Source: Verrucomicrobiaceae bacterium (GTDB lineage Bacteria; Verrucomicrobiota; Verrucomicrobiia; Verrucomicrobiales; Verrucomicrobiaceae). Taken from it: a stretch of 64,000 nt of DNA. Location of the stretch: contig JAEUHN010000017.1 of NCBI GenBank assembly GCA_016795365.1, positions 248,001-312,000 on the forward strand. Direction: 5' to 3'. This document shows positions 8,556 through 48,184 of the stretch, one piece after another (within the stretch, counting starts at the first letter, position 1; each line of letters begins with the position of its first letter). The position numbers and the translations under genes are program-made. Below the pieces are notes generated by a model. The model did not search any database and had not been told where the DNA came from. It saw nothing but the letters and a program-made list of their open reading frames with translations.

Positions 8556-9715
8556 AAACTCTGCTCTCGCTCCTCATTGGCTGCCTTGCTCTGGTGGCTC
8601 AGGCTGAAGATGTCACGCCCCTCGCCATCGGCTCGCCAGCTCCCGACTTCAACTTGCCGGGCATCGACGGCAACCAGCACACGCTTGCGGATTACAAGAA
8701 GACGGAGGTGCTGATGGTCATCTTCCTCAGCAATCACTGCCCGGCCTCGCATGGGTGTGAGCCGCGTCTGTTGAAGTTGTTCGCCGACTACAAAGGCAAG
8801 GGACTGGATGTGGTAGCGATCAATCCAAACAACCCCATCGGCCTGCGCCCGGATGAACTTGGCTACTCGAAATACAACGACAGCTTCGACGAGATGAAGC
8901 TCTACGCGAAGGACGCGAAGTTTACCTTCGACTACCTTTACGATGGCGAGACGCAGGCGACGGCGAAAGCTTACGGTTGCCTCGCGACGCCGCACGTCTT
9001 CATCTTCGACAAGGAGCGCAAGCTTCGCTACCAGGGCCGCTTCGACGACTCGCGCTACAAGGACGAGAGCACCGTCACGTCGCCGGATGCGCGCAACGCG
9101 GTCGAGGCGCTGCTCGCTGGCAAGGAAGTGCCCGTGAAGGAAACGAAGCCCTACGGCTGCTCGACCAAGTGGCTGACCAAGAAGGACCTCGTGAAGGCAG
9201 ACAACGAGAAGTGGGCGAAGGCCGATGTGATTGTGGAGACCATTGATGCCGCTGCCGTGGCCGCCCTGCGCAAGAACGACACGAAGAAGGTCCGCATGTT
9301 CAACGTGTGGGCCACGTGGTGTGGGCCATGCGTGGAGGAGTTCCCCGAACTGGTGAAGACCTCGCGCAAGTTTGGTCTGCGCGACTTTGAATTCATCAGC
9401 ATCAGTCTCGATGATCCTGCTGATTTGAAGACGGTGAAGAAGTTCCTCGATCAGAATGGCAACGTTTTGCCCAGCAAGCTGAAGCCATCGCTGAAGGAAG
9501 AAGGTCGCAACACCAATTGCTATGTCTTCAAAGGCGCGAACAACGATGAGCTGATCAAGGCGCTCGATCCGGAGTGGAAGGGGCCGATCCCGTTCACGCT
9601 CGTCGTCGCTCCCGGCGGTAAGGTGGTGTATCGGGTGAATGAAGAGGTCGATGGTGAAAAACTGCGCCAGACCATTCTGGACTACATGGGGGATTCGTAT
9701 GTGCCTGAGAACTAG
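8552..9715 (+). CDS. Secreted double-domain redoxin/thioredoxin-like protein
   Basis: This 387-residue protein has a signal peptide (LLSLLIGCLALVAQA) and two thioredoxin-fold domains. The first (about residues 30-190) is an AhpC/TSA-type redoxin with C63 and C69 in NHCPASHGCEPR. The second (about 235-387) is TlpA/ResA-like with the active site W256-C-G-P-C260. TlpA-like domains reduce disulfides in envelope proteins, including cytochrome c and copper-site maturation. It is coupled to the upstream DUF2007 gene and overlaps the downstream TPR gene by 17 bases, which makes a tight three-gene operon. Confidence 0.9.
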   Translation: MKTLLSLLIGCLALVAQAEDVTPLAIGSPAPDFNLPGIDGNQHTLADYKKTEVLMVIFLSNHCPASHGCEPRLLKLFADYKGKGLDVVAINPNNPIGLRPDELGYSKYNDSFDEMKLYAKDAKFTFDYLYDGETQATAKAYGCLATPHVFIFDKERKLRYQGRFDDSRYKDESTVTSPDARNAVEALLAGKEVPVKETKPYGCSTKWLTKKDLVKADNEKWAKADVIVETIDAAAVAALRKNDTKKVRMFNVWATWCGPCVEEFPELVKTSRKFGLRDFEFISISLDDPADLKTVKKFLDQNGNVLPSKLKPSLKEEGRNTNCYVFKGANNDELIKALDPEWKGPIPFTLVVAPGGKVVYRVNEEVDGEKLRQTILDYMGDSYVPEN

Positions 9716-17557: not shown

Positions 17558-20500
17558 ATGCGCTTAATCCGATGCTTGCTCTCGTCCTGGGTAGTCTTCT
17601 CTCTACTCCATGCCGAACCCACTGACAAGACGCTGCGCTACCATCAACTGCTGCTCAAGAAGCCTCAGCCTGGCACGGTGCTGGATCGCTTCGTGGACGC
17701 TTGGTTGGAGAATGACTCGCCTGCGTCCCTGACGGCCTTCCTCAAGGCAAGGGCGGAAAGCCCGACCGCGACGCCGAGCGACCATCTGCTGCTCGCGCTT
17801 CACCTTGTCCAGGAGGCCACCGATGACGCCGCAGCGCTCGCAGCTTTTGAAAAAGCGACCGCTGCTGCTCCGGACAATGCTATCGCGTGGCAGCAAAAGG
17901 CCCGACTGGAATCGCGGTTACTCGATTTTCCTCGTGCGCTGGCCTCGCTCGAAGCAGCCTTGGCGCAGCATCCAGAACCAAAGCTGGCGCTCGACCTGGC
18001 CAAGCTGCGCGGGCGCACGTTGCTTCGACTGGGCCGAACGAAAGACGCCCTCGACGCGTGGTCCACTTTGCTCAAGGAGCATCCCGATGACGAGGATCTG
18101 GCGGACGAACTTGTCGATCTCCAGGTGGAGGAAGGGCTGGAAGCCGAGGCTGTCATGCAGCTCACGGCCTTGATCGGCACGACGAAGGACCCCTACAATC
18201 AAGCCGTCCGCCGCCTCCGACTGGGAGACATTCAGCTTCGGCTTGCCAAGAAGCTGGAAGCTCTCGCAGCCTATGGCGAGGCGTTGGCGCAATCGGCAGC
18301 TGGTTCATGGATTGAGAGCGAGGCGCTGGCCCGTGTGGACTCCAGCTTTCGGCGTGAAGACAATCTGAAGGGACTCGCCGAGCATCTGGGCACGCTGGTG
18401 AAAGCCAATCCGCAGCGTCTCGGCGTGCTGAAGGCGCGGGCGCAAGTGCTCGCCGATGCGGGGGAAAAGGACGCGGCTCTCACCCTTTATCAGGACATCC
18501 TGCAGCGCAGCCCCGGTCAGCGCGACCTGCGTGAAAGCTACCTCGATCTGCTCGAAAAACTGGAGCGCTACGCCGATGCGATCGCACAGACAAAGGTGCT
18601 CATCGAGCAGAGCAAGACGGATAAGGAACTGCAGCTGCGCCTTGCCACCCTGCACCACAAGGCGGCAGACAAAGCTGTGTCTGCCGTAGCGCTCGATGCC
18701 TTCCTGGCCATGCCGGGGGTGGATGAGTTCGACCATCTTCGGGTCGCCAACATGCTCGATAACTGGAAGCGGGCCGATGAGGCGAAGCTGCGCTTTGCCG
18801 CAGCGATTGCTGCGTATCCGAAGAGCTTCGAAGTGCGCGATGCTCATGCGCAGTTCCTGCACCGCAGTGGTGACAAGGTGGCGGCGATTCAGGTCTGGTC
18901 CGAACTGGCCAAGGGCGTTGGCAGAGATGAGTTGCTCGCTGTTGCGATGGCGCTGATCGCGCGTGGCGAGCACAAGACGGCTTTCGACTTGTTGAGCGTT
19001 CGAGTGGCGGAGTTCGGCCACGAACCCCAGTTCCTGGCTCCTCTTTGCCAGGCAGCCCTGGCTGCGAAGCAGGCCAAGGTGGCGATCCCCTGGGCTATGT
19101 CGCGTGTCCGGCTTTCGGATGAATCGACAGGCCGGGCCGACGCCCTCAAGCAAGCCGAAACCATTCTTCGCGATGCCGACGCCATCGCTCCTACCATCCA
19201 GGATCTCAAGGCTCTGCCTAAACCTACGGTCAGCGATCAGTGCCTGCTCAGTGCGCTGCTGGAATCTCAAGGCGACCTGCAAGGTGCGGAGGCGGCGCTG
19301 CAATCGGCGGGCTCCAATTCCGAGGCGGCCACGAATGCTCTGCAATCCCAGTTGATCCGGCTTTATCAGGGACGGCAAGAATATGCCAACGCTGCGGAGG
19401 TGCTCGCCAAGGTGCTCACCACGCCTGAGGGCCGGACGTCGCAGAATGCCCAACGCCGTGTGGACATGCTGAACCGAGACGGCGATTCCGAAGCGGCGAT
19501 CAAGGCGGTCGAACTCTGGAAACAGCTGGCACCGAGTTCGTCGCAGCCCTTTTTGGCGGAGTCGAAGTTCTTGCGCACACTCGGCAAGTCCGAGGAGGCG
19601 CTGACGCTCCTGCGTGGTGCGGCGCGGAAATTCGAGGACGATGAATCCGTCGCCTCCGCGCTGGCCGATACCTACGCAGAAGCGGGCCAGTATGCGCCGT
19701 GCGAGCGCATTTATCTGAAGCTGTATGAACAGGCCGAGGACGAGACGGGCAAGCTGCGAGCCGTGAAGCTGCTCGCTGATGCAGCGCTCAGCCGGGGCGA
19801 GACCGAGGGGCTCATTGCACGATTCCGCGAGCGCCAGCAGACCAACCGAGCCGACCCGGTGCTGTGGCTTGCGATCGCGACCATCCTGGACGTGGCACGC
19901 AAGGACACCGAACAACTGACCGCACTCATCGAGGCTGCACGATTGAAGCCCACGGATGTGCAGCTCGCCCATCAGATCGCCCGGCTGCAGGAGGAGCAGG
20001 GCCAGGCCGCGCAGGCACGGCAGACGCTGGAGCGCATCGCGGGGACGGACACCACCACACGCTCCCGAATGCTGCTCGCTCTCCTGGCGCTGCGCAATGG
20101 TGACGCAGCGAAGGGCTACGAAGCTCTGGCGCAGCTCGCTGGTGGCTTGACCATGGATGCGCGCGATGCCGAGATCATCGCGGATACGATGGCAGCGAAT
20201 GGCGACTGGGATCGTGTGGTCAGCTTGCTGCAGCCATTGGTGGTCAAACATCCCGACGACTATCGCCTTGGCTACCAGCTGGCCGTTGCTCTTGAGGAGA
20301 CCAACGCCACGGAAGCAGCCCTGCGGGAGTTTTCACGCATCGTTCTCATCAAGGCGGAGCTTCCAGGATTTCCCAAGTCCAAGCCAGCCGGTCCCACCTG
20401 GTGGCAGCATGCGTTCAAGTCTTATCCTCCGGAGGCGTTGGAATGCATGAGGCTCGGCAATGAGCTTTATGGGGCCTACAGTTATCGGCGGCAGCGCTCC

Positions 20501-23500
20501 ACTTCGCAGATGGCCAAGGGCGGTTTCCTGGCCCTTCCCAGCAGCGTGGAGGATGGCCATTCCTGCTCGCTCGCCCACCTGTATCGCCTGGCGACAGACA
20601 TGCCGGACCCTGAGCGGGAAAAGCTGGGACAGTCGCTGCGCACGGCGGGCATCGGTGCGTGGCCTGCCATTGCCTACGGCACGCAACAGCAGGAATGGGG
20701 CGGGGTCGAGATTCCCTCGGCAGTGCTGGATCGCTGGCCGAATGAGCTGGTGCTGAATGCCCTGTGGACCGGTGAGAATGATGGTTCCGACGAGAACATG
20801 AAGCGGTTCCAACGGTGCTTCGATGTCCTGAAAGCTGACTACCCCGGCCTCGCGATCGACAAGGCCTTTGCAGCTCTGGCGCTCAACCCTGAGGGTGCTC
20901 GCCCCCTGATCGAGCAGTCCATGCAGATGATTGGCAGGGTCAAGAATGTGGGCACCGTCAGCGTGTGGCAGCTGGCCCGGTGCCTGGGAGGCTCTCAGAA
21001 TATCGAGCGCGATGACAGCACTCAGGTGGCGATGGCCGATGATCTCGCCGCCAAGGGGCTGAAGATGTTCCGTCAAATCCATGCTCAGCTGCCTGTCGAT
21101 AACGAGATGCGTGCCTACGCAGCCACCTACCTCACCCACGCTTTGGCCAAGAAGGGGTTGTGGGCTGACTTGATCGAGTTCTTCGAGACGGAGTTGGCGA
21201 GATACCTGGCCAGCCCGGCAGGCATGAAGATTTCAAAGGCTTGCTTCAGCAGCTACCAGGGTTCGCGAGGGCAGCCGATGATGATGTTTCCTGCGCCCGG
21301 CCATTTCCCACCGCACATCACTTCGCTACTGGCTTTCCCTGATCCGTTCAATCCCGACAGCTACGGTCCGATGAAGCAACGAACCGAAGCGAACGGGCTG
21401 CTCGATCTGGTGGATCAGATCAAAGATCCCCATCTGCGCGTGTTCATGGCGTGGTGGGGAGGCGATGGCAAGCGGGCGGAAGCGCTGGCGGATGCCCTCA
21501 TCGCTAAGGCTGATGTGACGGCAGCCGATTATGTGCTCGCAGCGGGGCTTGCCTCTCGCATGGAGCACTCTGATCGTGCGCTGAGCCTCCTGGCGAAAGG
21601 CGCCAGTCTCCCCATGCAGAGTGATGAACGGCGGTATCTGGACACCGGTTTCCTGGCTCTCGTGACAGAGATACCCAAGGTGCCAGAGACGGAACTGGAG
21701 CCTGCGCGCCAGGCATTGCGCCGCCTTCGCGCCAGCCGGTCGCCCCATATCGACCAGTTGCCCGACTTGATGATCAAACTGGCGATGAAAGAGGAAGCCG
21801 ATCGACTGTCCAAGCAGCTCTCAGCGGCACCTTCGACGACCATTACTCGCTACAACTACAGCAGTTCATCCCAGCAGGACAGCGACAAGCGTATCGCCAA
21901 CCACGTCTCAAGAGGGAACCTTGATGCCGCAGCCCGTGAGCTGCTTACTCAGGCGGGCAACATGATGAGCAACTACCTGGGCGGCAATCTCAGCTACCCG
22001 ATCAGCTCCGGAGCTTCGTTGGCGAGGAAACACAGCGCAGTCGCGAAGCATGCGCTGGCGAATCTGGAGAAGGCTGCCGCGTCTGGCAGCAAGCGGCTCG
22101 AGCTGGCTATCTGGGCGGACATTTTTGGCGAGAAAGAAAAAGCGCGTGAGCAGTTTGCCAAGGTGATCGAGCAGCAACCCAGGAACGCCACTGCCCGCGC
22201 CCGGCTGATAGCTCTGACGCTGGTCAAGGATCAGGAAGCCGGCGCGGCCCTGTTCGAGCAGGTGCCAATGGAACTTGTGGGCAATGTCCTCAGCGGTGGA
22301 CTCCTCGAAGCGTGTTTGCAGCTCGACATCACCATCGAGCAGCGATGTGCTCTGCTCGCGGCGGCCAATCGCCAGCTAGACAAGCTGGTCGCTGGCAAGG
22401 CAAAGCTGCCGAGGCAGGCAGTGAGTGGATTCGAGGTGTTGTCTGGACTCGCTCGTTATCCTGCGGAGAGGAACTCCCGCCAGATCAAAGAGTATCTCAA
22501 TGAGCGTGAGCCCGGCAGGGACTCCAAGGCCGATCCGAAGCTCGTGAAACTACGCCGCGACACGCATGATGCGCTTTGCCGTGCGATGCTGAGTTTCCCA
22601 GCGCTGGCTGATCAGGCATTCGCTTCGCTCACCTGCACGCAGGATGAAGCCTGGCTGCTGAAGACTGCCCATGAGGTGCTGGAAAGTCCGCCCGCTACGG
22701 AGCCGGGAGTGCCCGGTGTGGGGATCAACCGCTGGGGAGGGGACTCCCAGGGTTACCTGCGGCGATGGCTGCCAGGACCGGCCGAGTTTTTGATCGCCCA
22801 TGCCGCCACACACGAGAAGGCAGACGCCATCGAGAAGGAACTTCTGCCACTCGCTGAAAAGCATCTGCGCCCGAATGAACTGCGCGGAGTGCGTGCGTAT
22901 GCGGCTCTGTGGACGTGCCAGGAACAAGATTTCCCGAAGGCGTTGCGTGATTGGGCGCGAGCGAAGGGCGACTCGAACAATTACTACTGGTCGTGCAGTG
23001 CGGAGGCATGCGTTCCAGTGGATGTTTGGGCGCAGCGCAAGCTCGTCATTTCGCTGGATGAGGCTGTGGCAGAGGCTGCGAGAATGCAGACGAATTGGTC
23101 CACTCCTTCCCAACTCGTTCGCTACATGCAGTTGCGCTATCAATCCGATCCCGCGCTGGCCCTCGTCGGCATGGAGACCATTGCCACCCGCATGATCGGC
23201 AGCGGCGATGCGCGTGCACGACGGGTGAAGACGTTCATGGATTCACGCTACGGTCCGTCGGGCTCCAGTGATCAAGCCATGGGAGTGCTGCTGGAGGCCG
23301 TGGAGGCGATGGCGCGCCTGACGCAGACGGTGGGGCTCGCCTTCGAAGCTTCCGCCAAGCTGGGCTTTGCTTCTGATCAGCGCTGGATGGACAATCTGAG
23401 CGATTACGTGGACGAGGATGCACTGCACAGCGACGCCACGGCGTTCGTGAGTTTGCTGCGTGCGAGATCGTGCCTGAAAGAAGCGAAGGACTTCGATCCC

Positions 23501-26323
23501 CAGCATTCGGATCGGAATCGCTCCACCCTGGGCACGCTGTTCAACATTGACGAGGACAAGTCGGCCTTCCGTGAGGAATTGATCGCTCTGCTTGGCAAGG
23601 AGCCTGTCGCTACGTTTGGCGTGGAGCTGTGCATCGCTCTTGCCGCGCCTTCGAAGGATCGGGCGGCGGCCGTGACGAACTGGATCAAAAAGCGTTCGAC
23701 GGACTTTGCATCGGTCCCCGAGGCACGACGGATGGGGTTGGGCAATCTCTTGCGCTGGGCCGTCCCGGGGCTCAAATCGCCAGGCACCATGGACCCCGCC
23801 GTCACCAAGCCGCTTGAGCCCATCATCGGCAGCCTGATCAAGGAACAGGTGGCGAACACGGATAAGATGCTGGCCGCGAAGTCCTTCGATGACCTTCGGC
23901 TCAGTCGTGCGGTGAGTGACCATGAGTTAAAGAGTGATCTGCCCGGCATGTTGGTGGAACTCGCGCGCACGGACAAAGCCAAGGCCAAGGCTTTGTTCGA
24001 CAAGGTCCTCACGCTGGCCGAGGCGAAACAGGCCAAGGAGGGACTCTACGGCAATGATTACAGAGGCGGATGGACAGTGCGCAGCGCGGTGATGCATTCC
24101 TTGCTCGAAGATCAGAAGAGCATGGAAGCCGTCGGCTTCGGTTGCCGGATGTTCGCGGAAGACACCTCGGGCAAGTTGATCGCCAGCCTTGAAACCCCGC
24201 AGAAGAACACTGGAGCCGCCTTGCATGAGTTCTTCCGCAACAACGGCGGCCAGGGCAATCTAGGGCGTGGTCTGATGGCCATGTTCGAGCGACTGGAGCA
24301 GCAGCTTGACGATGTCTCACCCGTCGCGTTGATCTATTCGCTCCACGAGTTCAGCGGACGTCTGGGCACCAGCCAGTGGATTCCTGCGATTCGCTGGTGC
24401 GCGCAGAAGCAGCATCCTTATGCCGCAGAGTTGGATGCCGTGCTTCGCTTGCATCTGACGACGCACCAGGACACTCGCAAGAACGCGGGGATGCTGAAGG
24501 CTTTGGATGAACTCGGTGGCGTGGCACCGATGTGGCAGCACTACCGGAGCATCGTTCTCAACGACAAGCTCACACCTCAGCTCCGTCTCGGCATCGCCAC
24601 ACGAGTGCTCCGGGATCGCTGGCATGATGCGGATGCGGATCTAGTGCGCACCGCAGCAGGACTGATCGCGCAGGAAAACAAGGCCTTCCACGCCTGCCTG
24701 GGCACTCAGCAGATGCGCTACATCCTCCGCTCCTTCGTTCGTCTGCCGAAGGATGATGCCTGGCAAGCGATGCTCAAGGACTTGTGGGAGACCTGGCTGG
24801 TGCGCAATTCTCGCAATGGTGAGAGCAGTCGTTTCGGACGCACCTACCATCCTGATGACGAAAACATCCAGGGCATGATGCTTGCCGCTGCGGCCGGAGG
24901 CAAGACGGAGTGGTGCGAGAAGCTGGTCAACGAATGCGCCTCGTCCTTGGACAATGAGCCCTCGGCGATCATCACCTTGATCGAGGGCGGGCAGGTCGCG
25001 CTCGCGGCGAAACTGCTCGAACGGTGGGCCTTGGGCATGATTTACGATGCGAATGAAGGCCAGATGTGGAATTCGCAGCTCGATCAAAACATGCCGGCTT
25101 TCGTGGCCGCGTGCAGCAAGCCGGAGTGGGGCATGTTTGGCGAGATTCTGCTCAACAACCGCCTCAAAGATCCCGGCACACCCGATGCAGGAACGAAGTC
25201 ACGCAAGGATCGTTTCCTCGCCCTTGTGCCGAAGTTCAAGGCCACCACGTTTACCGACGCCGCTCTTCGTCAGCGCTGCTTGGAGTTCTTCGCGCAGATC
25301 AATGAACTCGCCGAACCATTGGCTGCGGACTACGCCGAGGCTTTGAATACGCTCGATATCGAGAAGGCGATGGCAATGGGCACTTGGGAAAGCTTTCTCT
25401 ACACCGGACCGGCGAGCGCGGCACTGGCCAACGAGTTGTGGAAAGGCAATGCGCAGCCTGCGCTCGATCTGCTGCCAAAGGCCGTGGCGGCGGTGAAAGG
25501 TGATCCGAGCGAGAACTACAATCCCTGGTGGACCGTGGGCTACATCTTTGGTGCCCCGATCTTCGACACGAACTGGCGCTGGGAGCAGGGGCACACCTTC
25601 GACACCTCGGCGCTGGTGAAGTTCTACGAGGCGATGGCTGTGCAGATGCCGCAGCCGCCGAACCATACCGGCGTGCAGAGTGCTCACATGGTGGGACGCG
25701 CTGTATCTTTGCTCATGGCCGTCCGCGCTGTGCAGGGCGACATGGCACCCTTCGAGGCGTGGCGGAAGTCATTGACCGAGGAGCAGCGGAAGACCATCCA
25801 GCGCTCGTTCAAAGCGCGGCACAACCTGCTTCAGGAATGCGCCAGCTACTTCGGCAAGGCGAAGACGAAGTTCTCCGTCGAGCAGCGTGCCAAGGCGATG
25901 GCGCTGATTCTCAAGGACCCGTGGGTCGGCCCGCTGTTTCCTGATGCTGGTGCGAACATCCCCAACATCAGCGGTGTGCTCGTGAACCAGTCCAAGGCCT
26001 TCACGCCTGCGGAGTATGGACGCGTGGCCATCCAACTGGCGGAGGTGCTGCCGCGCAAGGGCAAGACCGCTGGTGAGGCGGCCGATGTGCTGGTGCAGCA
26101 AGGCAAGCTGGCGGATGCTCTGCCGCTCTTCGACCTCGCAGCCAAGCAGGGGCTTCCCGATGTGAACGTGCAGGCCGCGTTCGTGTTCCGCAAAGTGGAG
26201 ACCCTCGAACGGATGAACAAGAAGGATGAAGCGAAGGCGGCGCTCGGTGCTGTCGTGAAGGACAAGCTGGGGGTGAACAACAAGAAGACGCTGGAGTCGA
26301 TGCTGAAGCGGCTTGGTTCGTGA
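17558..26323 (+). CDS. Giant secreted TPR-repeat protein (2921 residues)
   Basis: This single uninterrupted gene starts at ATG 17558 with a signal peptide (LLSSWVVFSLLHA); a TTG 30 bases earlier would spoil it. The first ~900 residues are tetratricopeptide-like helical repeats, for example AAALAAFEKATAAAPDNAIA, RALASLEAALAQHPEPKLA and DAALTLYQDILQRSPGQRDL. The rest stays alpha-helical with degenerate repeats, ending in TPR-like helices near GKLADALPLFDLAAKQGLPD. No catalytic motif, membrane anchor, lipobox or sorting signal was seen. TPR solenoids bind other proteins, so this would be an enormous envelope or surface scaffold. The composition looks like its neighbours, with no sign of recent transfer. 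It is monocistronic, ending 9 bases before a convergent gene. Confidence 0.92.
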   Translation: MRLIRCLLSSWVVFSLLHAEPTDKTLRYHQLLLKKPQPGTVLDRFVDAWLENDSPASLTAFLKARAESPTATPSDHLLLALHLVQEATDDAAALAAFEKATAAAPDNAIAWQQKARLESRLLDFPRALASLEAALAQHPEPKLALDLAKLRGRTLLRLGRTKDALDAWSTLLKEHPDDEDLADELVDLQVEEGLEAEAVMQLTALIGTTKDPYNQAVRRLRLGDIQLRLAKKLEALAAYGEALAQSAAGSWIESEALARVDSSFRREDNLKGLAEHLGTLVKANPQRLGVLKARAQVLADAGEKDAALTLYQDILQRSPGQRDLRESYLDLLEKLERYADAIAQTKVLIEQSKTDKELQLRLATLHHKAADKAVSAVALDAFLAMPGVDEFDHLRVANMLDNWKRADEAKLRFAAAIAAYPKSFEVRDAHAQFLHRSGDKVAAIQVWSELAKGVGRDELLAVAMALIARGEHKTAFDLLSVRVAEFGHEPQFLAPLCQAALAAKQAKVAIPWAMSRVRLSDESTGRADALKQAETILRDADAIAPTIQDLKALPKPTVSDQCLLSALLESQGDLQGAEAALQSAGSNSEAATNALQSQLIRLYQGRQEYANAAEVLAKVLTTPEGRTSQNAQRRVDMLNRDGDSEAAIKAVELWKQLAPSSSQPFLAESKFLRTLGKSEEALTLLRGAARKFEDDESVASALADTYAEAGQYAPCERIYLKLYEQAEDETGKLRAVKLLADAALSRGETEGLIARFRERQQTNRADPVLWLAIATILDVARKDTEQLTALIEAARLKPTDVQLAHQIARLQEEQGQAAQARQTLERIAGTDTTTRSRMLLALLALRNGDAAKGYEALAQLAGGLTMDARDAEIIADTMAANGDWDRVVSLLQPLVVKHPDDYRLGYQLAVALEETNATEAALREFSRIVLIKAELPGFPKSKPAGPTWWQHAFKSYPPEALECMRLGNELYGAYSYRRQRSTSQMAKGGFLALPSSVEDGHSCSLAHLYRLATDMPDPEREKLGQSLRTAGIGAWPAIAYGTQQQEWGGVEIPSAVLDRWPNELVLNALWTGENDGSDENMKRFQRCFDVLKADYPGLAIDKAFAALALNPEGARPLIEQSMQMIGRVKNVGTVSVWQLARCLGGSQNIERDDSTQVAMADDLAAKGLKMFRQIHAQLPVDNEMRAYAATYLTHALAKKGLWADLIEFFETELARYLASPAGMKISKACFSSYQGSRGQPMMMFPAPGHFPPHITSLLAFPDPFNPDSYGPMKQRTEANGLLDLVDQIKDPHLRVFMAWWGGDGKRAEALADALIAKADVTAADYVLAAGLASRMEHSDRALSLLAKGASLPMQSDERRYLDTGFLALVTEIPKVPETELEPARQALRRLRASRSPHIDQLPDLMIKLAMKEEADRLSKQLSAAPSTTITRYNYSSSSQQDSDKRIANHVSRGNLDAAARELLTQAGNMMSNYLGGNLSYPISSGASLARKHSAVAKHALANLEKAAASGSKRLELAIWADIFGEKEKAREQFAKVIEQQPRNATARARLIALTLVKDQEAGAALFEQVPMELVGNVLSGGLLEACLQLDITIEQRCALLAAANRQLDKLVAGKAKLPRQAVSGFEVLSGLARYPAERNSRQIKEYLNEREPGRDSKADPKLVKLRRDTHDALCRAMLSFPALADQAFASLTCTQDEAWLLKTAHEVLESPPATEPGVPGVGINRWGGDSQGYLRRWLPGPAEFLIAHAATHEKADAIEKELLPLAEKHLRPNELRGVRAYAALWTCQEQDFPKALRDWARAKGDSNNYYWSCSAEACVPVDVWAQRKLVISLDEAVAEAARMQTNWSTPSQLVRYMQLRYQSDPALALVGMETIATRMIGSGDARARRVKTFMDSRYGPSGSSDQAMGVLLEAVEAMARLTQTVGLAFEASAKLGFASDQRWMDNLSDYVDEDALHSDATAFVSLLRARSCLKEAKDFDPQHSDRNRSTLGTLFNIDEDKSAFREELIALLGKEPVATFGVELCIALAAPSKDRAAAVTNWIKKRSTDFASVPEARRMGLGNLLRWAVPGLKSPGTMDPAVTKPLEPIIGSLIKEQVANTDKMLAAKSFDDLRLSRAVSDHELKSDLPGMLVELARTDKAKAKALFDKVLTLAEAKQAKEGLYGNDYRGGWTVRSAVMHSLLEDQKSMEAVGFGCRMFAEDTSGKLIASLETPQKNTGAALHEFFRNNGGQGNLGRGLMAMFERLEQQLDDVSPVALIYSLHEFSGRLGTSQWIPAIRWCAQKQHPYAAELDAVLRLHLTTHQDTRKNAGMLKALDELGGVAPMWQHYRSIVLNDKLTPQLRLGIATRVLRDRWHDADADLVRTAAGLIAQENKAFHACLGTQQMRYILRSFVRLPKDDAWQAMLKDLWETWLVRNSRNGESSRFGRTYHPDDENIQGMMLAAAAGGKTEWCEKLVNECASSLDNEPSAIITLIEGGQVALAAKLLERWALGMIYDANEGQMWNSQLDQNMPAFVAACSKPEWGMFGEILLNNRLKDPGTPDAGTKSRKDRFLALVPKFKATTFTDAALRQRCLEFFAQINELAEPLAADYAEALNTLDIEKAMAMGTWESFLYTGPASAALANELWKGNAQPALDLLPKAVAAVKGDPSENYNPWWTVGYIFGAPIFDTNWRWEQGHTFDTSALVKFYEAMAVQMPQPPNHTGVQSAHMVGRAVSLLMAVRAVQGDMAPFEAWRKSLTEEQRKTIQRSFKARHNLLQECASYFGKAKTKFSVEQRAKAMALILKDPWVGPLFPDAGANIPNISGVLVNQSKAFTPAEYGRVAIQLAEVLPRKGKTAGEAADVLVQQGKLADALPLFDLAAKQGLPDVNVQAAFVFRKVETLERMNKKDEAKAALGAVVKDKLGVNNKKTLESMLKRLGS

Positions 26324-43997: not shown

Positions 43998-44160
43998 TTG
44001 GAGAACCGATCCGGCTTGCAGAACTATTTTCGCTGCGACTGTTATCGCTGGACATTGAGACTTTGGCCCAAGAGCTGTCGCGCGTGAAAAAACTAAAATT
44101 CGCGTGTCACCGCGAATCTCTATTCCGGTAAGCGGTTGTGTCTTGGCACCCCAATCAAAC

Positions 44161-44808
44161 GTGAGACACTCCCCACTGACCATACTCGCCACGCTTGCAG
44201 CGCTTTTGCTCGTCGGATGCGCGAGCATTCCGCCTCGCCCACTCACTGTCGAGGAGCAACACTTGGTTGGTATTTGGATGGTTAATCAATGGGCAAAAGG
44301 GATTGGGCGCATGCGCGGGGTATATCAGTTCCTACCGAACCGTAGCCTCATTATGCTGGTCCACTCCGGCAGAGGCATGTCACAGACAAGCGTGCAATGG
44401 GAGGCGATAGATGGGCAGCTCCATGTTACAGGCTTTGGCAAGCCTGATGCCTGGCAAGCCTATCGTTTCAGCGAAGATGGCAATACTCTTTACGTCCGCA
44501 ACGATAGCGGCCAGGAAGACACATGGCAGCGCTATTCGCACAATCCCTACCATCCCTTACAGCAGGCGTATGCCCAAATACCGGATCACGGTTGGGGGCG
44601 GGCGGGTGTCTCCGGCCTTGCTGATTTGATGCATGGCGCAATGACTGCGGATGTAGCCATTCACAGACAACGGGCCGCTCTGGGCGATGCTGACTCCCTT
44701 CGCTGGCTCGAAGAGAACGAAGACAGAATACACGCCATGGGAAGCAGCTTAGACCAAAGTCACGAAGACGCTTTGGCACGCGAACGGGGGCGATTCCCCA
44801 TTGATTAA
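44161..44808 (+). CDS. Hypothetical lipoprotein, island gene 1
   Basis: This 215-residue protein starts at GTG 44161, which places a lipoprotein signal (LATLAALLLVGCASIPP) at the very N-terminus; a GTG at 44104 would add 19 residues before it. The body contains VEEQHLVGIWMVNQWAKG and YQFLPNRSLIMLV, a pattern like small lipocalin/META-type beta domains, followed by a helical C-terminal part. No family was recognised. It opens a run of seven same-strand unknown genes. Confidence 0.7.
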   Translation: MRHSPLTILATLAALLLVGCASIPPRPLTVEEQHLVGIWMVNQWAKGIGRMRGVYQFLPNRSLIMLVHSGRGMSQTSVQWEAIDGQLHVTGFGKPDAWQAYRFSEDGNTLYVRNDSGQEDTWQRYSHNPYHPLQQAYAQIPDHGWGRAGVSGLADLMHGAMTADVAIHRQRAALGDADSLRWLEENEDRIHAMGSSLDQSHEDALARERGRFPID

Positions 44809-44841
44809 CAAACTGCCACCGCACTTTCACCCTCATATTCT

Positions 44842-45984
44842 ATGAAACATAACTCATATCTGATCTCGATTCTGCTGCTAACAATCGGGTTAAGCAGTTG
44901 CTACGAAAACGCACCCGACGGACGTCGCGCGCCACCAGCGGAGTGGAGTGGCGTGTGGATTCAAACGGTGACCAATCCCGAACCAGGTAGCGCCAGCTAC
45001 TCTCAACTTGAACCAGTGAATGACCGGATTGCCCGACTAAACACCGTAAGTTGGAATTCAACGCCAGGAAAAGAGACCTATTCGACCTCAGAGGCAGAGG
45101 TATCCGTTTGCGAAATTGACGGGCAGACGGTTTGGTGCCAACGCGCAGTTGGACCAGGGACTGGCGATCACATAGGGCTATATACCTTTGCGATTGCTTG
45201 GAAACACAATATCCAACTGGTTTTGCTCCCTGCACTGCTACCAGAAGCTATAAAGAAAAACGCTAGCCCGGACGAATTACGGGGTGCGCTCGCCGAGTTC
45301 ATACGCAAGCAAAGAGCAGCAGCCTCGAAAGACACAACAGCCTTTGCAAGCAGTGCTGGCTTCTCGTCATATGCGCCGGCTATATCGTCAAAACTTCCTG
45401 CCCCACCTGAGGGGTTGATTGATAAAGCGCGTCTGAGATCGGCTCAGACCTCTCAACTTCCAACCCAAGAGGCAGCAAATGAACTTTTGAGGAAACCCGG
45501 GAAGACGGGCATTAAAGAAATCGATGATCTTGGTAAGCCAGCCGAGCCCAACTCGCCTCGCCCTGCGAAGGGCATCATGGGCGACCTGTTTGCTCCTCAG
45601 GCGAAACCGACTATTAAGGCTTGGCGTGATGCCACTGCCGATGGTGGTTTGCGCTTCTGGCAGGGCGCAATGCGCTCCGGAGACGACATGACAGCGGCAT
45701 TGGCTCTGGTAGCTGGGTCTGAGTTAGTTGGTTATCAAATGCAAGCCATCAAAATCACGCTCCAAAACACCGCGAAAACGCCTGCGGCAGTCAGTGCTTC
45801 ACAACTCCGGGTTAGCAGTGGGGAGGGTGGCCAGAGCTATACGCTAATTGTGCTGGGCTGGATGGTCGGAGCGACACCATCCTTCAATAATTCCATTCAG
45901 GTAAATGCTCAGTCAGAGGTTGAAGTGTTCGGCTACTTCACAGCGCCCAAAGGATTCCAGGGCACTAAGCTCTCTATCGACTGA
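44842..45984 (+). CDS. Hypothetical lipoprotein, island gene 2
   Basis: This 380-residue protein has a lipobox at residue 20 (LLLTIGLSSC). An N-terminal beta region (EWSGVWIQTVTNPEPGSASY) is followed by a helical middle (DELRGALAEFIRKQRAAAS), a Pro-rich linker, and a C-terminal beta domain (GYQMQAIKITLQNTAKTPAA, VEVFGYFTAPKGF) that looks like an FxLYD or Ig-type fold. The codons and base composition look more A/T-rich than in flanking genes. No family was recognised. Confidence 0.7.
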   Translation: MKHNSYLISILLLTIGLSSCYENAPDGRRAPPAEWSGVWIQTVTNPEPGSASYSQLEPVNDRIARLNTVSWNSTPGKETYSTSEAEVSVCEIDGQTVWCQRAVGPGTGDHIGLYTFAIAWKHNIQLVLLPALLPEAIKKNASPDELRGALAEFIRKQRAAASKDTTAFASSAGFSSYAPAISSKLPAPPEGLIDKARLRSAQTSQLPTQEAANELLRKPGKTGIKEIDDLGKPAEPNSPRPAKGIMGDLFAPQAKPTIKAWRDATADGGLRFWQGAMRSGDDMTAALALVAGSELVGYQMQAIKITLQNTAKTPAAVSASQLRVSSGEGGQSYTLIVLGWMVGATPSFNNSIQVNAQSEVEVFGYFTAPKGFQGTKLSID

Positions 45985-46002
45985 TCCAGCCAGCACGCTT
46001 CC

Positions 46003-46464
46003 ATGAAAACTAGCACAACCATCATGTTGGCCGAAACAAAGAACTTGGGTCCGATTGGATTACCCGAACTGCTCATGTTCGGCCTCGGGGCTTTGTTACT
46101 GTGCGGGCTGATCGCCGCTTTTGTCTTATATCTGCTTACACTTCAAAAGGCGCTAAAAGAGTGTCATCCAGACAGCCAGGAAATGGCACCATGGGTCATC
46201 TGGCTGAATCTCATTCCGATAGTCTCGAATGTCACCGTTTTCATCACGACTATCTTGCTGGCAAACTCATTGAAGAACGAATTCGTGAGACGTGGACTGA
46301 AGGTCGATCAGGGGTTTGGGCGCGGGCTTGGAATAGCCACTGGAGTTTCGGCTTTGCTGTCTGTGCTTCCCATCTTGCTGCCTATCTTCCTAGTGTTTTG
46401 GATTCTACACTGGTCTGCCATCAAGCGGGTGCTTGTGGTTTTGAAGTCATCACCAACGGCGTGA
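46003..46464 (+). CDS. Hypothetical three-helix membrane protein, island gene 3
   Basis: This 153-residue protein has three strong hydrophobic helices (LLMFGLGALLLCGLIAAFVL, WVIWLNLIPIVSNVTVFITT, GVSALLSVLPILLPIFLVFW). The short loop between the first two carries KALKECHPDSQEMAPW, which is reminiscent of DUF4328-like proteins, but the match is loose. It starts 18 bases after island gene 2. The function is unknown. Confidence 0.7.
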   Translation: MKTSTTIMLAETKNLGPIGLPELLMFGLGALLLCGLIAAFVLYLLTLQKALKECHPDSQEMAPWVIWLNLIPIVSNVTVFITTILLANSLKNEFVRRGLKVDQGFGRGLGIATGVSALLSVLPILLPIFLVFWILHWSAIKRVLVVLKSSPTA

Positions 46465-46495
46465 GGGAGAGTTAGGACGAGAGCTTCACTTGCCA

Positions 46496-47140
46496 ATGGA
46501 AAACCTGACCCAAAGCTATCAGAACGCCTTTGAGGAGGCACGTCGCGTCATCGCGAATGGGGGCACGCTTGAAGAAGCGGTTAACCGCTTGGTCGAGTTC
46601 GCTAGGAGTGAAGGGTGGACCGAGGAGAAAACGCGAGCATGTGCTGTCGAAGCTCAAAAAGTGCTCCCTTTCTTCATTAGCGCTCATCAACCGAGCGGCG
46701 CAGTCCGCAATCACTATGAAAAACTCGTTCACGAACTCATTAAGCTATGTGAGTCCAACGCCTCGGAATTAGCAATGAAGGAATTCGCTGAGCGGCAGGC
46801 GAATGAAGAATGTTGGTCTGAGTTGGAGAAGAGCGGCTACTTCGCCGCCTGGGAGCAAGTCCTTGTGAGTGTAAGGCGTGCGGTGCGGGAGAAACGGGTG
46901 GCCGCTCTTTCCCTGCGTCCGGCAAAAAAAGCAGAATTTGCATTCATGTCGTTTCTACTGACTGTGCCATTGCTTTTACTGCCTTTGCCTCCAGCAAACA
47001 TCGTTCTGTGGGGCATCGCCGGATGGCAACTCACCCTGAAATGGTGTCGGTTTGTAGCTACACGCAATGCTAAGGAGTTCGAAGACCTCTCGGATTCTGA
47101 CGTGTCTCAGCGTTGGGACAAACTCTGGCTAAAGTTCTAA
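46496..47140 (+). CDS. Hypothetical protein with C-terminal membrane hairpin, island gene 4
   Basis: This 214-residue protein starts at ATG 46496 (a TTG two codons earlier is weaker). About 145 charged, helical residues (QSYQNAFEEARRVIANGG, EKLVHELIKLCESNASELA) are followed by one or two hydrophobic segments (FMSFLLTVPLLLLPLPPANI, VLWGIAGWQL) and a charged tail. It has the look of a membrane-anchored cytoplasmic helical domain. No family was recognised. Confidence 0.65.
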   Translation: MENLTQSYQNAFEEARRVIANGGTLEEAVNRLVEFARSEGWTEEKTRACAVEAQKVLPFFISAHQPSGAVRNHYEKLVHELIKLCESNASELAMKEFAERQANEECWSELEKSGYFAAWEQVLVSVRRAVREKRVAALSLRPAKKAEFAFMSFLLTVPLLLLPLPPANIVLWGIAGWQLTLKWCRFVATRNAKEFEDLSDSDVSQRWDKLWLKF

Positions 47141-47151
47141 AGCAACTGCCA

Positions 47152-47403
47152 ATGGCAAAAGGTCAGCAACAACAAAGAGGCTGCATCGAACGGGTGTTTG
47201 AGGGCATTGGCTGCGTGGTCGGCCTCATCGGAGGGGCGGTTTACGGTTATTTCCAAGACCCCACCAGTCCCGTGATCAACGCCATCCTCTACGGCGGTGT
47301 TTTTGGAATCATGGGTGGAATCATTGGGCGGCTGGCTCCCACATTGATCATTGTCGGCGTCATTGCCTTCATCATTGCCATCATCAAAAAAATTCAGGGG
47401 TAA
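47152..47403 (+). CDS. Small glycine-zipper membrane protein, island gene 5
   Basis: This 83-residue protein starts at ATG 47152, 11 bases past island gene 4; a TTG at 47113 would overlap that gene. Two hydrophobic segments rich in spaced glycines (GCVVGLIGGAVYGYF, ILYGGVFGIMGGIIGRL) are followed by a third helix (TLIIVGVIAFIIAIIKKI). Glycine zippers favour close helix packing in membranes. The function is unknown. Confidence 0.65.
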   Translation: MAKGQQQQRGCIERVFEGIGCVVGLIGGAVYGYFQDPTSPVINAILYGGVFGIMGGIIGRLAPTLIIVGVIAFIIAIIKKIQG

Positions 47404-47426
47404 CGATCCCTTCACATTCAAGCCTT

Positions 47427-47894
47427 ATGACGACTGAAGAACACAGCAAAGAATTGGACCGCAGACATGCAGAACTCCACCACCTGAAAAAGCCTCGACT
47501 CCCAGAAATGGAACCTCGCGTCCCGAGCAAATCTTCATGGGCTGCCGCCCGCGAGGAGATAGAGGCACTCGAGCGAGAACAGGGCCGCCGATTGGCTCAG
47601 CAGGCCGAGAAATGGATCCGGGTCTTCGCGGTGTTCCATGGGGATGAAAGCTCCGAACGATGGACTGCTATCCAGGCGCTCGACAAGGCAGAAGCAGCAC
47701 TCTCCAAAGCAGGTATTCGCTATCAACGTCAGACCGAATCGAGAGACACCGAACGCCTCGTTCCAGATCCAGAACCACCGGGTGGATTCTGCATAGAACT
47801 GGGAAGCTCGACGACCTTGGCTCTTGAGGTCACTGCGGCGGATGAACAACGGGCACTGGAAGTGATTCGCGAGCAGAAGGAGGTTACTGCCTGA
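47427..47894 (+). CDS. Hypothetical soluble protein, island gene 6
   Basis: This 155-residue protein has a charged helical N-terminus (AAAREEIEALEREQGRRLAQ). The C-terminal half (DKAEAALSKAGIRYQRQT, then SSTTLALEVTAADEQRALEV) resembles a DUF2007-like fold, in which a short sequence between two helices is read by position in the family. That resemblance is weak. It starts 23 bases after island gene 5. Confidence 0.6.
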   Translation: MTTEEHSKELDRRHAELHHLKKPRLPEMEPRVPSKSSWAAAREEIEALEREQGRRLAQQAEKWIRVFAVFHGDESSERWTAIQALDKAEAALSKAGIRYQRQTESRDTERLVPDPEPPGGFCIELGSSTTLALEVTAADEQRALEVIREQKEVTA

Positions 47895-47896
47895 GT

Positions 47897-48184
47897 ATGT
47901 CTTCGTCAGTCAATCTCATCGCCATCGAATGGCGACAAGGCTCTTACAGAGTTCTGGGTGAAGTGCCGGTTTCGATCAGCTTCCACAAAGTCCGGGAGAC
48001 GGGACGGATGCATGAAGTGGATCGGAAGATGGCAGCAGACTACAGGGACGATATTGCCATCCTGGATAGATCTGATTTGCTAGCGTTCGCCGATGATCGA
48101 GCCGCCATGGAGGCATACCTGCCGTCCATCACAGCTCAGTTCTTTCTGCTTCATCGCTACGAGTGGGAGTCCGGGTTCGATTGA
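47897..48184 (+). CDS. Hypothetical soluble protein, island gene 7
   Basis: This 95-residue protein starts 2 bases after the stop of island gene 6, so translation is probably coupled. It reads as a small alpha/beta protein (VNLIAIEWRQGSYRVLGE, ending TAQFFLLHRYEWESGF). No known domain was recognised, and it has no signal or membrane segment. Confidence 0.6.
   Translation: MSSSVNLIAIEWRQGSYRVLGEVPVSISFHKVRETGRMHEVDRKMAADYRDDIAILDRSDLLAFADDRAAMEAYLPSITAQFFLLHRYEWESGFD

Follow-up and report, generated by a model that had tools for sequence, protein, structure and literature searches.

By sequence criteria the gene for a 2921-residue protein found in the window (the whole stretch of DNA analysed, 64,000 nucleotides) belongs to a defined Verrucomicrobiota family of giant TPR proteins, about 2.5-3.9 kaa long and marked by a diagnostic 45-residue N-terminal cap. 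Giants of this family occur almost only in genomes hosting a particular MoxR-Bat operon, and their genetic link to it is strong. The giant is best regarded, with a probability of about 0.6, as an exported scaffold-type subunit of a variant MoxR-Bat system found in Verrucomicrobiota, in which MoxR and DUF58 would assemble the complex. No description of this pairing was found in the open-access literature. The protein had initially been presented as having no recognised function; a reading as a functionless one-off is not supported, as it is a member of a family tied to a MoxR/DUF58/BatA/VWA operon.

The giant gene and its product

In the window the reading frame is open from TTG 17528, and the ATG at 17558 is the likely start codon. 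The ORF is uninterrupted and spans 13.7% of the window (14% in the initial annotation). Its codon-position GC follows the same coding pattern as the neighbouring genes, in agreement with the neighbour-like base composition and intact frame already remarked upon. Selection had also been assumed, and comparison with the sister genome G001 bears this out: dN/dS is 0.125 overall and 0.05-0.16 in each segment, residues 931-1300 changing fastest and residues 2101-2500 slowest, so that the gene is under purifying selection. A pseudogene or an assembly artefact is ruled out by the low dN/dS and by an open frame in numerous genomes. A recent repeat expansion at the DNA level is similarly ruled out, as no tandem DNA repeats were found in the gene. 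A scan near its start revealed neither a sigma-70-type promoter consensus nor one for a terminator, and a tblastn search of plasmids with residues 1-1000 as query gave no match. Lipocalin, AsnC regulator and aminotransferase genes upstream and a ZnuA gene downstream flank the giant; neither these nor the TerC gene of the window are conserved beside distant orthologues, and they provide no clue. Small ORFs of weak coding-type composition are found between better-defined genes at 44104-48184 of the window.

The features of the gene product are listed in Table 1.

Table 1. Position of the giant gene and of its segments in the window
Feature	Residues	Position	Strand	Evidence
Giant TPR/alpha-solenoid protein, probably exported	1-2921	17558..26323	+	intact ORF, full-length orthologues, dN/dS 0.125
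Probable signal peptide	1-19	17558..17614	+	inspection by eye and hydropathy
N-terminal cap	24-67	17627..17758	+	family profile match, E 2.3e-21
TPR solenoid	~60-934	17735..20359	+	Pfam, NCBIfam and PDB-chain profile matches
All-helical remainder	935-2921	20360..26320	+	AlphaFold2 models and fold searches

The first 19 residues (MRLIRCLLSSWVVFSLLHA) resemble a signal peptide and probably act as such, and typical signal peptides are present in several orthologues. The hydropathy scan detected no further membrane segment beyond the N-terminus. Pfam families scoring above cut-off are all of the TPR type and are confined to about the first 930 residues: TPR_19 (49.1 bits, cut-off 25, six stretches), TPR_14 (47.1 bits, cut-off 23.5, five stretches) and TPR_17 (30.4 bits, cut-off 24.4). 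The giant hence reaches the Pfam gathering scores for tetratricopeptide repeat proteins. AlphaFold2 models of two overlapping segments, both of modest confidence, are wholly helical with zero strands (residues 901-2020, pLDDT 63, pTM 0.41; residues 1802-2921, pLDDT 69, pTM 0.44), and on these models disorder over most of the protein seems unlikely. Foldseek and VIA-align retrieved generic TPR and HEAT solenoids only. Alignments were of class level only, to HEAT-type solenoids for residues ~2177-2541 and to TPR-type ones for residues ~2780-2921, TM-scores being low and Z < 10, the range termed common arrangement by the tool. Altogether, the portrait first drawn of a secreted protein with TPRs in its first third, a helical remainder and no catalytic or anchoring domain fits these data, Pfam and NCBIfam matches being of the TPR type only.

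A family of giants sharing an N-terminal cap

The cap lies just past the signal peptide, fits the consensus KAxRYxxxLxKRPxxGxxFDRFxxAWLE, and is common to all the 42 giants aligned. Members of the family are here defined by this cap following a signal peptide, in an ORF longer than about 2 kaa, as is the case for the window giant. Searches covered Verrucomicrobiota, namely 57 relatives and 387 genomes sampled across the phylum, and the contig scan yielded records of Verrucomicrobiota type, Prosthecobacter and other Verrucomicrobiaceae assemblies included. A profile built from 25 giants gave 25 strong matches in the relatives (E <= 5.2e-17), all located in ORFs of at least 2146 aa, with the exception of a 702-aa contig-end fragment in G001. 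In the phylum sample the profile identified giants and two short-ORF matches of uncertain status (G322:C47 and G385), and failed to detect the divergent giants in G199 and G313.

Full-length orthologues were identified among the 57 relatives. Their identity to the window giant is 31-34% in eight genomes further removed and 89-92% in G001, whose copy is divided between two contigs. Additional paralogues of 2.2-3.9 kaa were also found. Neither a lack of orthologues, nor disorder, nor frame decay, which had been put forward as grounds for doubting the annotation, was encountered, because full-length orthologues, all-helix models and an intact frame with low dN/dS are at hand.

The window genome, G000, hosts two members detected by the cap profile, the window giant and one on contig C6 (L041:6376-15207, minus strand, about 2.9 kaa). 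The latter is also unlinked to the operon, and adjoins genes for an iPGM-type phosphoglycerate mutase and an M20 peptidase. The profile leaves out the TPR protein at 9699 and the kinase tail of the window. Both had been taken for relatives of the giant, and proved to be generic TPRs, with best matches below Pfam cut-offs.

The MoxR-Bat partner operon

In the loci of distant orthologues the giant gene adjoins a conserved set of five genes. These encode a coiled-coil membrane protein of ~510-570 aa without a Pfam family (denoted COIL), a MoxR ATPase (AAA_3), a DUF58 protein, a protein with a BatA N-terminal domain and a VWA domain, and another membrane protein with a VWA domain, which bears GATase1-like similarity (VWA2). 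The usual order, giant-COIL-MoxR-DUF58-BatA-VWA2, is found in several families of the phylum; in G422 the operon comes first and two giants follow it in tandem. A 4-base overlap of the giant with COIL or VWA2 is present in four loci and suggests translational coupling. MoxR, DUF58, BatA with VWA and the second VWA are all found both in the L033 locus and in the operon of the window genome (L069). Here MoxR shows the motifs GVPGLGKT and LADEINRA; both VWA proteins retain the DxSxS MIDAS motif. The operon MoxR scores 211.5 bits against AAA_3 versus 42.4 bits against bpMoxR (cut-off 27). Classical Bat operons further feature BatD and the small TPR proteins BatB, BatC and BatE; a Pfam search of the five genes gave no match to BatD, and COIL falls in no Pfam family. 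PADLOC gave no match for the giant, COIL, DUF58, BatA and VWA2 and only weak AAA matches for MoxR, and an anti-phage defence system was rejected on this basis.

COIL of the window genome (L069:12431-14086) comprises a Q-rich coiled coil in which Cys pairs recur, and three hydrophobic segments are present in a close homologue. COIL marks the operon just as reliably as the giant does.

Co-occurrence and linkage

Giants (E < 1e-100) and orthologous DUF58 genes (identity >= 53%) were surveyed in the 57 relatives, and are found in the identical set of 14 genomes. DUF58 proteins of some kind are present in every relative searched, several in most, the non-orthologous paralogues being at most 33% identical. 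Were the genomes independent, two sets of 14 would coincide exactly with a probability of 1.3e-13; they are not, and the figure serves as a guide only. More telling is the concordance within genera: presence of both genes varies within three of them, and is concordant in each (5/16 in g9, 1/4 in g4, 1/2 in g19). In the evenly drawn sample of 387 phylum genomes COIL and DUF58 are found in the same 17, all of which host a giant. Two further giants of this sample, in G095 and G180, adjoin a divergent operon. In G180 this includes VWA2, BatA, DUF58 (35%) and MoxR (55%), and lacks COIL; in G095 VWA2 and a partial neighbour were found within the stretch examined.

In 17 of 19 phylum genomes a giant and the operon are adjacent and co-directional, the exceptions being G322, too fragmented to tell, and G000, in which they are unlinked. 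Extra unlinked giants are present in many genomes.

The loci L113 and L114 represent a second subtype of giant-linked MoxR/Bat operon, of low identity; in L114 no COIL is found beside the giant.

The giant of the window genome lies apart from the operon

In G000 the window giant is located on contig C32, at least 176 kb from the contig ends, and an intact operon (COIL, MoxR, DUF58, BatA, VWA2) on contig C10, at least about 124 kb from either end. As both are far from contig ends, the separation is real and does not reflect an assembly break. In the sister G001 the giant is likewise found among unrelated genes. In a tree built on about the first 900 residues the window giant falls in a supported clade of nine (99/96), six of which are operon-linked. 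The giant on contig C6 groups with that of G022, probably operon-linked as well, since the G022 gene is split over two contigs that have the sequence MQPFW in common. Given these placements, descent of both G000 giants from operon-linked ancestors would be the most economical history.

A gene for a 132-aa protein of the 23S rRNA IVS type (PF05635) is inserted between COIL and MoxR in G000 and G001 (L069:11941-12339 and L070:1483-1881). Among the loci seen, this insertion is found in the window genus only.

Interpretation and alternatives

According to the preferred reading the giant would be exported by means of its signal peptide, with the periplasm as the probable destination, and would fold as a very long alpha-solenoid made of the cap, ~900 residues of TPRs and degenerate TPR/HEAT-like helical repeats. 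Its most likely role would be to scaffold, or offer a docking surface to, BatA and the GATase1-like/VWA protein, both of them membrane-anchored. For Bat systems a single complex uniting TPR and VWA components has been proposed (PMC3557215), and the BatA-type VWA domain of Borrelia BB0173 has been shown to face the periplasm (PMC5700661). The VWA domains of BatA and VWA2 probably do the same, and would encounter the giant there, provided that BatA shares the topology of BB0173. Cytosolic MoxR with DUF58 may then remodel or assemble the complex using ATP. Gene integrity, family membership, linkage, co-occurrence, domain content and purifying selection are shown here, whereas the periplasmic location, physical contact, scaffold role and ATP-driven assembly are inferred; linkage and co-occurrence in themselves establish neither contact nor mechanism. 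Counting against this reading are the location of the G000 giant outside the operon, the extra unlinked giants, the low confidence of the models and a signal peptide judged by eye and hydropathy. A phenotype should not be taken for granted, because growth and morphology were unchanged in bat mutants of Leptospira biflexa (PMC3557215).

The giant might instead be a client on which the MoxR-VWA machine acts: an exported protein with a structural or binding function, in need of the dedicated chaperone complex for folding, export or assembly. MoxR/VWA pairs such as NorQ/NorD and RavA/ViaA act on dedicated client complexes (PMC9976466, PMC3893208, PMC10585395). Several genomes feature two or three giants and one orthologous operon, as expected if one machine served several clients, and giants diverge faster (31-34% identity) than MoxR and DUF58 (64-86%). 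However, MoxR should be cytosolic and the giant exported, and gene order and co-occurrence fail to discriminate; the client role is possible, and on the unlikely side. Still less probable is that the unlinked giant of the window genome has acquired a different function, unconnected with the operon. Its position among unrelated genes in both G000 and G001 would suit such a change, yet both genomes retain giant and operon, and purifying selection acts to a similar degree throughout the protein.

LbcA (PA4667) is one of the PDB chains hit with the family profile (residues 638-830, E 3.5e-6), and the giant might, like LbcA, be a TPR adaptor for a periplasmic protease. The match is however one of generic TPRs, and CtpA-type proteases are absent from the conserved neighbours, which makes this role very improbable. 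A part in an exopolysaccharide or PEP-CTERM export system, as played by PrsT and BcsC, can practically be dismissed. PrsT (TIGR02917) is the top NCBIfam match of the giant at 72.9 bits, but its cut-off is 312.2 bits; BcsC reaches 16.9 bits versus 858, and no such gene is found among the conserved neighbours. The candidate was rejected on NCBIfam cut-offs and gene neighbourhood.

Returning to the scaffold-type subunit, a broader proposal, tentative and open to doubt, is that in Verrucomicrobiota the giant and the five-gene operon make up an envelope machine, hitherto undescribed and inherited separately, in which cytosolic MoxR would act through membrane VWA proteins on a solenoid large enough to span or line the periplasm, docked by its cap. 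MoxR-VWA/Bat operons are widespread in bacteria; the tie of one such operon to a single huge exported protein provides a concrete candidate partner or client. The cap offers a means to recognise and annotate the family. A giant TPR protein of Verrucomicrobiota thereby gains a testable context, namely a partner system in which to probe what it does.

Comparison with known systems

The operon resembles Bat (Bacteroides aerotolerance) operons, in which MoxR (AAA_3), DUF58, BatA N-terminal plus VWA, a second VWA and a TPR protein are found together (PMC5700661, PMC3557215). It differs from them in three respects: TPRs are supplied by a separate, exported partner of 2.5-3.9 kaa rather than by a small protein, a Pfam-orphan coiled-coil membrane protein is added, and the second VWA protein carries a GATase1-like domain. 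A MoxR and VWA pair accompanied by superstructure-forming repeat proteins is also typical of MoxR-vWA ternary conflict systems, the third component of which is VMAP, iSTAND, FtsH or a beta-propeller (PMC7159879). In contrast, the giant is probably exported, and neither FtsH nor beta-propeller domains were seen in the operon genes examined.

The modest-confidence models place the giant in the same fold class as the large eukaryotic alpha-solenoids Ctr9, Ski3, IFT139, CAND1 and importins, as well as the periplasmic scaffold of the Campylobacter flagellar motor, with TM-scores of 0.1-0.2 and 5-16% identity, values that support neither homology nor shared function. The RL3499-RL3502 operon of Rhizobium leguminosarum reportedly encodes MoxR, DUF58 and BatA-type membrane proteins, and its mutation is said, in work attributed to Vanderlinde in 2011, to affect cell morphology and envelope integrity. 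We know of no giant TPR protein associated with it.

Separate exported TPR proteins of ~2.0-2.15 kaa are encoded by the window genome (L065:6438-12542, contig C22) and at the loci L060, L062, L063, L064 and L066. They were left out of the family, because they have no match to the cap profile and are found near SbcCD genes. In two genomes they adjoin genes encoding a ~195-aa probable lipoprotein and SbcCD-like proteins.
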